A DNA stretch of 64,000 nucleotides. Source: a bacterium (lineage in GTDB: Bacteria; Vulcanimicrobiota; Vulcanimicrobiia; Vulcanimicrobiales; Vulcanimicrobiaceae). The position numbers and the translations under genes were made by a program. The notes beneath the pieces are model-generated. The model did not search any database, had not been told where the DNA came from, and saw only the letters and a list, made by a program, of their open reading frames with translations. Location: assembly GCA_028869385.1 (NCBI GenBank), contig JAGWSR010000021.1, forward strand, positions 1 to 64,000. The letters run 5' to 3'. Numbering within the stretch: the stretch's first letter is position 1; every line of letters begins with the position of its first letter. Shown one piece after another: positions 22,668 through 25,891 of the stretch.

Positions 22668-22691
22668 ACTCATCCTCAACTATTTCGAAGC

Positions 22692-22962
22692 AGCCGCACG
22701 ACGCGGCTGAAGGTTCGGAGCGCACGATGCGCGCCCGGCCGAAGGCCGGCCGAACCGTAGCCGCACGGATGCGGCTGAAGGTTCGGAGCGCACGATGCGC
22801 GCCCGGCCAAAGGCCGGCCGAACCGTAGCCGCACGGATGCGGCTGAAGGTTCGGAGCGCACGATGCGCGCCCGGCCGAAGGCCGGCCGAACCGTAGCCGC
22901 ACGGATGCGGCTGAAGGTTCGGAGCGAACGATGCGCGCCCGGCCGAAGGCCGGCCGAACCGT
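22692..22962. repeat. Four tandem 68-bp palindromic repeats between topA and trmFO
   Basis: Copies begin at 22692 (67 bp), 22759, 22827 and 22895 and are nearly identical. Each contains three nested inverted repeats: AGCCGCA/TGCGGCT, GCGCA/TGCGC and GGTTCGG/CCGAACC, the last enclosing GGCCGAAGGCC. An extra CCCGGCCGAACCGTC follows the last copy. The array fills almost the whole 309-bp gap, and no gene is seen in it. There are no spacers of the CRISPR kind. Confidence 0.9.
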
Positions 22963-22976
22963 CCCGGCCGAACCGT

Positions 22977-25145
22977 CTATACTTCCGCGAGTTCGCGGTC
23001 GTCGGTCGGATCCTCACCGCTCGCCTTCGGCGCGAGCGACGAGACGTCGTGCTCTTTATCCGCCGCGCACTCGAGCAGCACGACTCCGCCGCGACGATTC
23101 TTCGCGACCACGTGGCTGCCGCAGGTCGGACACGGCTCGGGGATCACGCGATCCCACGAGACGAAGTCGCATTTCGGATAGTTGGCGCAGCCGTAGAACG
23201 TACGTCCCTTCTTCGACCGGCGTTCGACGACTATGCCGCCGTCCTTGGGACACTTCGCGCCCGTGTCTTTCACGATCGGCTTCGTCGTCTTGCACTCCGG
23301 ATATCCCGTGCACGAGATGAACTTGCCGAAACGACCGGTCTTGATGACCATCGGGCGCGAGCAGTTCGGGCAGATCTCGTCGGTCGGCTCGTCTTTGATC
23401 TCGATGCGCGGCAGCTTCTTCTCCGCCTCGTCGAGCTCGGTCTGGAACGGCCCGTAGAAATCGCGAAGGATCGCGACCCAGTCCTGATGACCCTCCGCGA
23501 CCTTATCGAGCGAGCCCTCCATCGCGGCCGTGAATTTCAGATCGACGATGTCTTTGAAATGCTCGGCGAGCAAGTCGTTGACGGCGATGCCGATGTCGGT
23601 GGGCTTGAAGCGCCGATCCTCTTGCGTCACGTAGCCGCGCGCCTGGATCGTATCCACGATCGTCGAGTAGGTCGAGGGGCGGCCGATGCCGTTCTCTTCG
23701 AGCGCTTTGACGAGCGTCGCTTCGGTATAGCGCGGGGGCGGCTCGGTGAAGTGCTGCTTTGCGTCGAGCTTGGAGCAGTCGAGCGCGTCGCCTTCGTGCA
23801 GTTCGGGGAGTCGCACGCGCCCTTTGCCCTTTGCGCTGCCGGTTGCCGCATCGCTTTTCTCGGCCGCCGCATCCTCGTCGCGACCTTCTTCATATACGCG
23901 GGTGAAGCCGAGAAACTTGACGACGCTGCCGGTCGAGCGGAACGTGTACTCGCCCGCCACGATGTCGACCGCGGTCTGGTCGAAGACCGCCGCAGCCATC
24001 TGCGAGGCGACGAAGCGCTCCCAGATGAGTGTGTAGAGGCGCAGTTCGTCGCGCTTGAGGATGTGCGCCACGCTCTCCGGCGTGCGCGTCACGCTCGTCG
24101 GACGAATCGCTTCGTGCGCGTCTTGGGCGCCTTCGCGCACCTTGTGCGCGCGGCCGCCGTGGAACGCCTCGCCGTACGCCCCGAGGATGTACTCGCGAGC
24201 GGCGTCGCGGGCCGAGTCGCTGATGCGCGTCGAGTCGGTACGCATGTAGGTGATGAGACCCTGCGTTCCCTCGCTGCCGCCGAGATCCACGCCTTCGTAG
24301 AGCCCCTGGGCGATCTGCATCGTGCGGCGCACGCGCAGGCGCAGCTTGCGCGACGCCTCTTGTTGGAGCGTCGAGGTCGTGAACGGCGCGGGCGCGTTGC
24401 GGCGCACCTCGCGATGCTTGACGGCGCCGACCGTGAAGCGCGCGCCTTCGAGCGCGGCGAGCACTTCGTCGGCTTCGGCCTTCTTCGTGATCTCGAACTT
24501 CTCGCCGCGGCGCGCGACGAGGTCGGCCGGAAAGACGATCGCCGGATCGCGATCGGTCGCGAGCGACGCGGTGAGGCTCCAATATTCGCGCGGAACGAAG
24601 GCGCCGATCTCGCGCTCCCGATCCACGATCAAGCGAACGGCGACCGATTGGACGCGGCCCGCGGAGAGACCGCCGCGCACCTTGGCCCAGAGCAACGGCG
24701 AGATCTTGTAGCCGACCAGGCGATCGAGGATGCGGCGCGCCTGCTGCGCGTTCACGCGATCCATGTCGATGCGATGCGGCTCCTTGAGAGCGGCCAGCGC
24801 CGCGTCTTTGGTGATCTCATGGAGTTCGATGCGCTTGGGATCCGGGAGCTTCAGCAACTCGGCTAGATGCCACGCGATCGCTTCGCCTTCGCGATCGGGG
24901 TCGGTCGCGAGGAATACGTCGCTCGCGCTTTTGACTGCGCTTTTCAGCTCCTTGATCACGTCGCCTTTGCCTTTGATCGTCAGATACTTCGGCGCGAAGT
25001 CGTGCTCGACGTCCACCCCGAGCGTACTCTTGGGAAGATCGCGCACGTGACCGACCGACGCTTTGACCACGTAGCGCGGCGGGAGAAACTTCTTGATCGT
25101 GCGCGCCTTGGTCGGCGACTCGACGATGATCAGGGGCTTTTTCAC
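22977..25145 (-). CDS. topA: DNA topoisomerase I
   Basis: 722 residues, type IA topoisomerase relaxing negative supercoils. The Toprim domain starts KKPLIIVESPTKARTIKKFL with acidic DPDREGEA. The active-site Tyr is in QGLITYMRTDSTRIS. Three C-terminal zinc ribbons (about 575-700) each carry CxxC pairs (CPNCSRPM..., CPKDGGIV... in variant form, CPTCGSHV...). The family-consistent start is GTG 25145. A TATACT box ends seven bases before this GTG, suggesting a leaderless mRNA. topA is divergent from a histone H1-like gene and followed by the 68-bp repeats and trmFO. Confidence 0.96.
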   Translation of the reverse strand: MKKPLIIVESPTKARTIKKFLPPRYVVKASVGHVRDLPKSTLGVDVEHDFAPKYLTIKGKGDVIKELKSAVKSASDVFLATDPDREGEAIAWHLAELLKLPDPKRIELHEITKDAALAALKEPHRIDMDRVNAQQARRILDRLVGYKISPLLWAKVRGGLSAGRVQSVAVRLIVDREREIGAFVPREYWSLTASLATDRDPAIVFPADLVARRGEKFEITKKAEADEVLAALEGARFTVGAVKHREVRRNAPAPFTTSTLQQEASRKLRLRVRRTMQIAQGLYEGVDLGGSEGTQGLITYMRTDSTRISDSARDAAREYILGAYGEAFHGGRAHKVREGAQDAHEAIRPTSVTRTPESVAHILKRDELRLYTLIWERFVASQMAAAVFDQTAVDIVAGEYTFRSTGSVVKFLGFTRVYEEGRDEDAAAEKSDAATGSAKGKGRVRLPELHEGDALDCSKLDAKQHFTEPPPRYTEATLVKALEENGIGRPSTYSTIVDTIQARGYVTQEDRRFKPTDIGIAVNDLLAEHFKDIVDLKFTAAMEGSLDKVAEGHQDWVAILRDFYGPFQTELDEAEKKLPRIEIKDEPTDEICPNCSRPMVIKTGRFGKFISCTGYPECKTTKPIVKDTGAKCPKDGGIVVERRSKKGRTFYGCANYPKCDFVSWDRVIPEPCPTCGSHVVAKNRRGGVVLLECAADKEHDVSSLAPKASGEDPTDDRELAEV

Positions 25146-25152
25146 GGGGCTA

Positions 25153-25182
25153 AGTATACTCCCGGGGTCAAGACGCGGGCAA
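25153..25182 (-). promoter_or_regulatory. Probable sigma70-type topA promoter
   Basis: On the minus strand, TTGCCC (25182-25177), an 18-bp spacer and TATACT (25158-25153). The predicted +1 falls on or next to the GTG start codon. Confidence 0.5.
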
Positions 25183-25201
25183 ACGAAGCGGCACGGCGAG
25201 G

Positions 25202-25252
25202 GCGCGCGTGCGCGCGTACGCGTGCGCACGTATGCGCGCACACGTGCGCGCG
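25202..25252. other. 51-nt perfect purine-pyrimidine alternation (Z-DNA candidate)
   Basis: Every base from 25202 to 25252 alternates purine/pyrimidine, mostly CG and CA/TG steps with a single TA/TAT interruption type, for example GCGCGCGTACGCGTGCGCAC. The tract lies between the -35 boxes of topA (25177-25182) and of the H1-like gene (25255-25260). Confidence 0.85.
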
Positions 25253-25254
25253 AT

Positions 25255-25283
25255 TTGCAGAATTTGTCGAAATCCTTTATAGT
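25255..25283 (+). promoter_or_regulatory. Probable sigma70 promoter of the histone H1-like gene
   Basis: TTGCAG (25255-25260), a 17-bp spacer and TATAGT (25278-25283). It starts three bases after the alternating tract. Confidence 0.6.
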
Positions 25284-25299
25284 GCGCTTAAAGCGCACT
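25281..25299. promoter_or_regulatory. Operator-like palindrome over the start site of the H1-like gene
   Basis: AGTGCGCTT-A-AAGCGCACT, a perfect 9-bp inverted repeat that overlaps the end of the -10 box and the expected +1. The half-site GTGCGCT recurs at 25300-25306. This placement would suit a repressor. Confidence 0.5.
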
Positions 25300-25321
25300 G
25301 TGCGCTGTCCAAATAACGTCG

Positions 25322-25339
25322 TCGTCCCCCGGGGGACGA
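25322..25339. promoter_or_regulatory. 18-bp perfect palindrome next to the ribosome-binding site
   Basis: TCGTCCCCC/GGGGGACGA, directly upstream of GAGGAGGA. In RNA it could form a hairpin that partly hides the Shine-Dalgarno. The same GGGGGACGA arm recurs in the terminator after the gene. Confidence 0.45.
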
Positions 25340-25349
25340 GGAGGAATGA

Positions 25350-25829: not shown

Positions 25830-25849
25830 CGCACACGCGTAGCTTTAAT

Positions 25850-25891
25850 GAAGGGGGACGATCGTCACGATCGTCCCCCTTCAACATTTTT
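25850..25891. terminator. Strong bidirectional intrinsic terminator
   Basis: A perfect 15-bp stem (25850-25864 with 25868-25882, GAAGGGGGACGATCG) and loop TCA, followed by AACATTTTT. It ends the H1-like gene and probably also the converging TPR operon. Confidence 0.85.

Follow-up and report, generated by a model that had tools for sequence, protein, structure and literature searches.

Does the region between a bacterial topA gene and its divergent neighbour harbour a DNA element that is selected for its structure? The question arises from a 64-kb stretch of DNA analysed here in full (hereafter, the window). In it, an initial annotation had described a tract of alternating purines and pyrimidines, 51 nt long, between the promoters of topA and of a gene for a histone H1-like protein, and had proposed that it acts as a supercoil sensor or buffer. 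The alternation between 25202 and 25252 is indeed exact, without a break. Whether Z-DNA plays evolved roles in bacteria has been difficult to test, as candidate sites are weak and scattered.

A single long alternating tract between two divergent genes

Named relatives of its TopA indicate that the window comes from a metagenome-assembled genome of Candidatus Eremiobacterota. The topA gene encodes a standard bacterial type IA enzyme, which matches TIGR01051 (topA_bact) and contains Toprim, Topoisom_bac and zinc-ribbon domains. The divergent gene codes for a protein with approximately 28% Lys and AAGGRKK repeats. Searches of this ORF against Pfam and NCBIfam gave no family match, and the denomination 'H1-like' rests on its composition and repeats. 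The features of the locus are collected in Table 1.

Table 1. Features predicted in and around the topA/H1-like intergenic region (window coordinates)
Feature	Position	Strand	Remarks
topA, type IA DNA topoisomerase I, 722 aa	22977..25145	-	Pfam Toprim/Topoisom_bac/Zn_ribbon_Top1; TIGR01051
topA discriminator TAGCCCC	25146..25152	-	GC-rich; GTG start directly after
topA promoter TTGCCC-18-TATACT	25153..25182	-	conserved across family
Z-prone purine/pyrimidine-alternating tract	25202..25252	no strand	51 nt, unbroken
H1-like gene promoter TTTGCA/TTGCAG-(17-18)-TATAGT	25254..25283	+	ATGCAAAT edge kept in relatives
Perfect palindrome AGTGCGCTT-A-AAGCGCACT, 9-bp	25281..25299	+	predicted start of H1-like transcript; partly conserved
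5'UTR hairpin TCGTCCCCCGGGGGACGA (TCGTCC..GGACGA)	25322..25344	+	directly before GGAGG ribosome-binding site of H1-like gene
H1-like Lys/Ala/Arg-rich repeat protein, 159 aa	25350..25829	+	divergent from topA

Between 24900 and 26000, the only sigma-70-like sites are those of the topA and H1-like pair, for 0.1 expected in shuffles. The topA -35 box lies 19 bp from the tract, as originally annotated (TTGCCC-18-TATACT at 25182..25153). The 2-bp gap reported on the other side also holds, as 1-2 bp depending on whether the H1-like -35 is TTTGCA at 25254 or TTGCAG at 25255, with the -10 TATAGT at 25278-25283. As the GTG start of topA (25145) comes only seven bases after the -10, the topA mRNA is probably leaderless. 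An extra TTGAC at 25166-25171 (-), located 7 bp before the topA -10 and shared by families f1, f2 and f3, does not match a plain -35 at such a distance. On the other side of topA, repeated GC-rich units occupy positions 22680-23017, between a trmFO-like gene and topA, and show up as recurring peptide blocks (SAGLRPGAHR.LRTFSRIRAATVRPAFGRARIVRSEPSAAS) when spurious ORFs are translated.

On the H1-like side, the AGTGCGCTT-A-AAGCGCACT palindrome is a possible operator. The TCGTCC..GGACGA hairpin before GGAGG is the single such site in the genome; most f1 genomes retain it, although its inner pairs and loops vary, and translation of the H1-like gene may be under its control. A terminator-like stem of 16 pairs with a T-rich tail is found 3' of that gene, at 25849-25883 (+).

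The tract itself is a long, CG/CA-rich alternating run of the type that defines Z-DNA-forming sequences, its pyrimidine-purine steps being CG (16), CA (4), TG (3) and TA (2). The longest other alternating run in the window measures 20 nt, and Markov simulations of order 1-5 (60 simulated 64-kb sequences for each order) gave runs of at most 28 nt. A geometric tail fitted to the runs of the window predicts about 5e-6 runs of at least 51 nt genome-wide. In the 3.08-Mb genome, the sole match to a 24-nt alternation scan in RY phase is the tract itself, as it is for a 32-nt scan; results for the genome as a whole rest on pattern searches of this kind, and the Z scores given below on individual loci. 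Chance arising from high GC is thus ruled out by the Markov models, the tail fit and the whole-genome scans.

Other trivial origins were discarded as well. The tract is not a simple microsatellite, since it mixes CG, CA, TG and TA steps and no short unit covers it as a whole. Open frames do cross it, but the conserved topA start is the GTG at 25145 and the tract lies beyond. A structured RNA was rejected, as the tract is upstream of both predicted transcripts and belongs to no Rfam family: no match reached the gathering threshold, and those below it were of low complexity.

Alternation retained among relatives while the letters change

In 60 genomes, a search for 36-nt alternation gave matches in only four, the window's own genome included, and each time just upstream of topA. 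We extended the search to family and order (103 genomes, 30-nt alternation in either phase). Runs of at least 30 nt were found in nine genomes, eight of which carry them between topA and a divergent H1-like gene. The annotation had reasoned that equally long tracts scattered elsewhere would speak against its proposal; the genome analysed here has none, and the topA site is the location in eight of the nine tract-bearing genomes. These eight genomes span four genera (g1, g31, g52 and g10), with runs of 51 nt in both G000 and G001, 43 in G002, 44 in G032, 58 in G093 and 59 in G094, and shorter ones of 30 nt in G011 and G089. The G002 tract consists of 17+43 nt, interrupted once over a length of about 61 nt. 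In G091, the ninth genome, the run is a (GCGTGC)n hexamer microsatellite located where a contig ends. In G013 (genus g12), alternation extends over 29+27 nt with one break; this genome and the eight above make up the set of nine tracts used below.

Shorter or broken Z-prone stretches are present at the topA site of many other f1 genomes and of all four f2 genomes, and none were found there in the sister family f3 or in more distant families. Judged by protein composition, an H1-like neighbour is present in approximately 73 of 83 f1 genomes and in 2/2 f2 genomes with enough flanking sequence; by the same criterion, a divergent H1-like neighbour was found in no f3 genome. The tract is not essential to the gene pair, since several f1 genera (e.g. 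G005, G007, G016 and G029) keep topA and the H1-like gene without any notable Z-prone stretch. The topA regions of low-GC Bacillota showed nothing similar to the tract. Within the family, the resolution of a tree of TopA N-termini is too poor for counting gains and losses of the tract.

Evidence for selection comes from two pairs of related tracts. The ungapped 51-nt tracts of G000 and G001 differ by 15 transitions and no transversions, and those of G093 and G094 show 21 differences over 58 sites, every one of them a transition. Phase-aligned alternating tracts can differ by transitions alone, and the informative part is that alternation has survived such divergence. At topA fourfold sites, transversion rates amount to 0.281 (G000/G001) and 0.272 (G093/G094), from which 14.4 and 15.8 transversions are predicted in the respective tracts, for none observed in either; the probabilities of zero transversions are about 5e-8 and 1e-8. 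In the tract flanks, most changes are transversions, with 13 among 18 differences in the first pair and 13 among 23 in the second. With no transversions in two pairs, the relatives display the constraint on alternation that is expected of a conserved regulatory element. The annotation had asked whether alternation is conserved upstream of topA in relatives; it is, while the sequence is not. Selection on the alternation of the tract is well supported by these comparisons.

The edges of the tracts behave differently. On the H1 side, all nine tracts end at a distance of 4-7 bp from GCAAA in the -35 region, whereas on the topA side the position of the edge varies by about 20 bp. The initial picture of an alternating tract between two promoters stands, with one modification: the anchor point is the H1-like -35, not topA. 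This anchoring suggests that the tract may act first on the H1-like promoter.

Calculated Z-DNA propensity and competing explanations

We calculated the ease of flipping with Z-Hunt-type energies and a simple two-state model, so that absolute sigma values are rough; in a 5-kb domain, the predicted B-Z midpoint of the tract is at a sigma of about -0.035 to -0.038. A Z-DNA predictor had been suggested by the annotation, and this model, applied to the window and to the loci of relatives, ranks the tract as the easiest to flip. Its midpoint in the two-state model is approximately -0.0376, versus -0.0409 for the best of the remaining 200-nt pieces in the window; among the relatives' loci (25 loci, 1,388 pieces), the best midpoint, -0.0391, is also harder to reach. 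Of the upstream regions of topA, 24% in f1, 50% in f2 and none in f3 lie below the first background percentile; the f1 enrichment has a p value of 3e-11, or 2e-4 with genus medians. When the sites of a 5-kb domain compete in the model, the tract is predicted to flip first and to draw almost the whole probability, with a P(Z) of 0.41 at a sigma of -0.035, 0.89 at -0.0375 and 0.99 at -0.040, and a 0.5% probability of flipping elsewhere.

The composition of the tracts complicates this picture. TA, the worst step for Z-DNA, occurs 42 times within the tracts versus 21 expected (both strands counted), CG is also in excess, and CA/TG are depleted. Because of the TA excess and the CA/TG depletion, Z energy is not minimised in the tracts. 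This is a second modification of the initial picture, as the letters of the tract are not optimised for the lowest Z energy. Neither the bias in steps nor the occurrence of CGTACG in all nine tracts is accounted for by Z energy. The TA excess, together with the over-representation of CGTACG, is also the reason why two other readings have to be weighed, one invoking protein sites and the other neutral, hairpin-templated maintenance.

The tract might be an array of binding sites, either for a regulator that recognises CG-rich palindromes like GCGTACGC or for an autoregulating H1-like protein, with alternation as a by-product of the motif. CGTACG is present in all nine tracts, with 14 copies versus 3.7 expected in alternation-preserving shuffles, and GCGTACGC has 10 copies versus 2.1. 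The tract also adjoins the H1-like -35, where a repressor or an activator could work. However, CGTACG varies widely in count and position, with one or two copies per tract centred 70-118 bp from topA, and no other word is fixed. A fixed operator was rejected on these grounds, CGTACG being enriched yet without a fixed place. It is common elsewhere too, with 38 occurrences in the window, and alternation kept over 43-59 nt goes beyond the needs of one or two sites. We consider this explanation unlikely.

Alternatively, a tract that arose once in an ancestor at this site might owe its lasting alternation to dinucleotide slippage and hairpin-templated correction, by which mismatches become transitions and breaks are mended, with no benefit to the host. 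The fast, transition-only change (29% of tract sites, versus 11% transitions at fourfold sites), the excess of self-complementary CG and TA steps and the differing lengths of the tracts are in line with such a process. It is nevertheless difficult to reconcile with the lack of transversions in two separate pairs, when about 14 and 16 were expected, and with the fixed edge on the H1 side, and the tracts are not simple repeats. Hairpins are no stronger than in alternation-preserving shuffles: the folding energies (MFE) of all nine tracts lie within those of the shuffles, and none has the self-complementarity beyond alternation that a cruciform calls for, so that a hairpin or cruciform element was rejected as such. 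Furthermore, Z-prone stretches recur at the topA site in f2, and a sequence prone to decay is unlikely to have lasted by chance. Neutral persistence thus appears distinctly unlikely.

It is very unlikely that alternation was selected for another physical property. Such a property could be a hinge of dense, flexible pyrimidine-purine steps, ease of melting, extrusion of a cruciform, or a means to keep the alpha-CTD of RNA polymerase and nucleoid proteins off the H1-like upstream region. The excess of TA steps (flexible yet poor for Z-DNA) would agree with this reading, as would the location of the tract where an UP element of the H1-like promoter is expected. However, hairpins are no stronger than in shuffles, a GC-rich tract disfavours melting, and strict alternation over 43-59 nt is a known requirement of Z-DNA, not of flexibility.

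A candidate supercoil buffer and its known counterparts

Our preferred explanation, which we regard as reasonably probable, is that selection maintains the tract as a cis element encoded by structure, a B-Z supercoil buffer or sensor that couples topA and the H1-like gene to local torsion. Of the initial proposal, uniqueness, position and kept alternation are borne out; from these and from the calculated ease of flipping, we infer Z-DNA formation in vivo, buffering and a regulatory effect, of either sign, on the promoters. Divergent transcription of topA and the H1-like gene would cause negative supercoils to accumulate between them, and beyond a local superhelical density of about -0.035 the tract would turn from B- to Z-DNA, over about 20-26 bp at first and up to about 50 bp later. 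By model arithmetic (51 bp x 0.179 per bp, plus junctions), the flipped tract could absorb up to about 10 turns. Torsion would then be held near the flip threshold, which might buffer both promoters and limit topological cross-talk, and topA would be able to respond to local torsion, as would the H1-like gene with its -35 right beside the tract. Owing to its GC-rich discriminator, TAGCCCC, the topA promoter is expected to be activated by negative supercoiling; GC-rich discriminators are known to favour promoters activated in this manner (PMC8422995).

It is tempting to go further and to view the locus as a B-Z switch that occurs naturally in the chromosome, is maintained through selection for alternation and not for its letters, and gives topoisomerase I and the H1-like protein a common torsion threshold, in other words as a structure-based supercoiling homeostat of bacteria, a proposal that we make tentatively. 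If it is true, TopA and the H1-like protein would be tied into one torsion-linked unit, and the locus would provide a natural, genetically tractable example in which the conformation of DNA senses or buffers supercoiling. In this group of uncultured bacteria (Candidatus Eremiobacterota), each genome with the tract has a single site, located at the topoisomerase I gene, with strongly constrained alternation and drifting letters. Our literature search, with many subscription papers outside its reach, found no report of a Z-prone tract at topA, which is weak evidence of novelty.

The Escherichia coli topA promoter is supercoiling-sensitive. In Streptomyces, high negative supercoiling induces the topA promoter (PMC5055605), and the locus described here would resemble topA p1 of Streptomyces coelicolor in tying topA to negative supercoiling in a homeostatic loop. 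It differs by the long Z-prone tract beside an H1-like gene, as neither Z-DNA nor a divergent partner features in the Streptomyces work (PMC5055605). As in the SIBZ survey of mouse genes (PMC3024258) and in c-myc, a Z-prone sequence is located where transcription-driven negative supercoiling collects; the SIBZ survey, however, describes a statistical enrichment over many eukaryotic genes (PMC3024258), whereas here there is one unique, alternation-conserved bacterial tract. A survey of prokaryotes found RY patterns to be generally suppressed, with no strong tie to a gene class (PMC4060949). The tract belongs to the same pattern class, and here the sole long run of the genome sits at topA. Its predicted flipping under transcription-driven torsion is like that of the plasmids of Rahmouni and Wells (1989, cited in PMC3024258), in which localised supercoiling reportedly stabilises Z-DNA in vivo. 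Those plasmids were engineered reporters, whereas the tract is a natural chromosomal element kept by evolution. Z-DNA as an absorber of torsion is thus already known, and what appears to be new is a conserved natural case that involves topoisomerase I and an H1-like protein.
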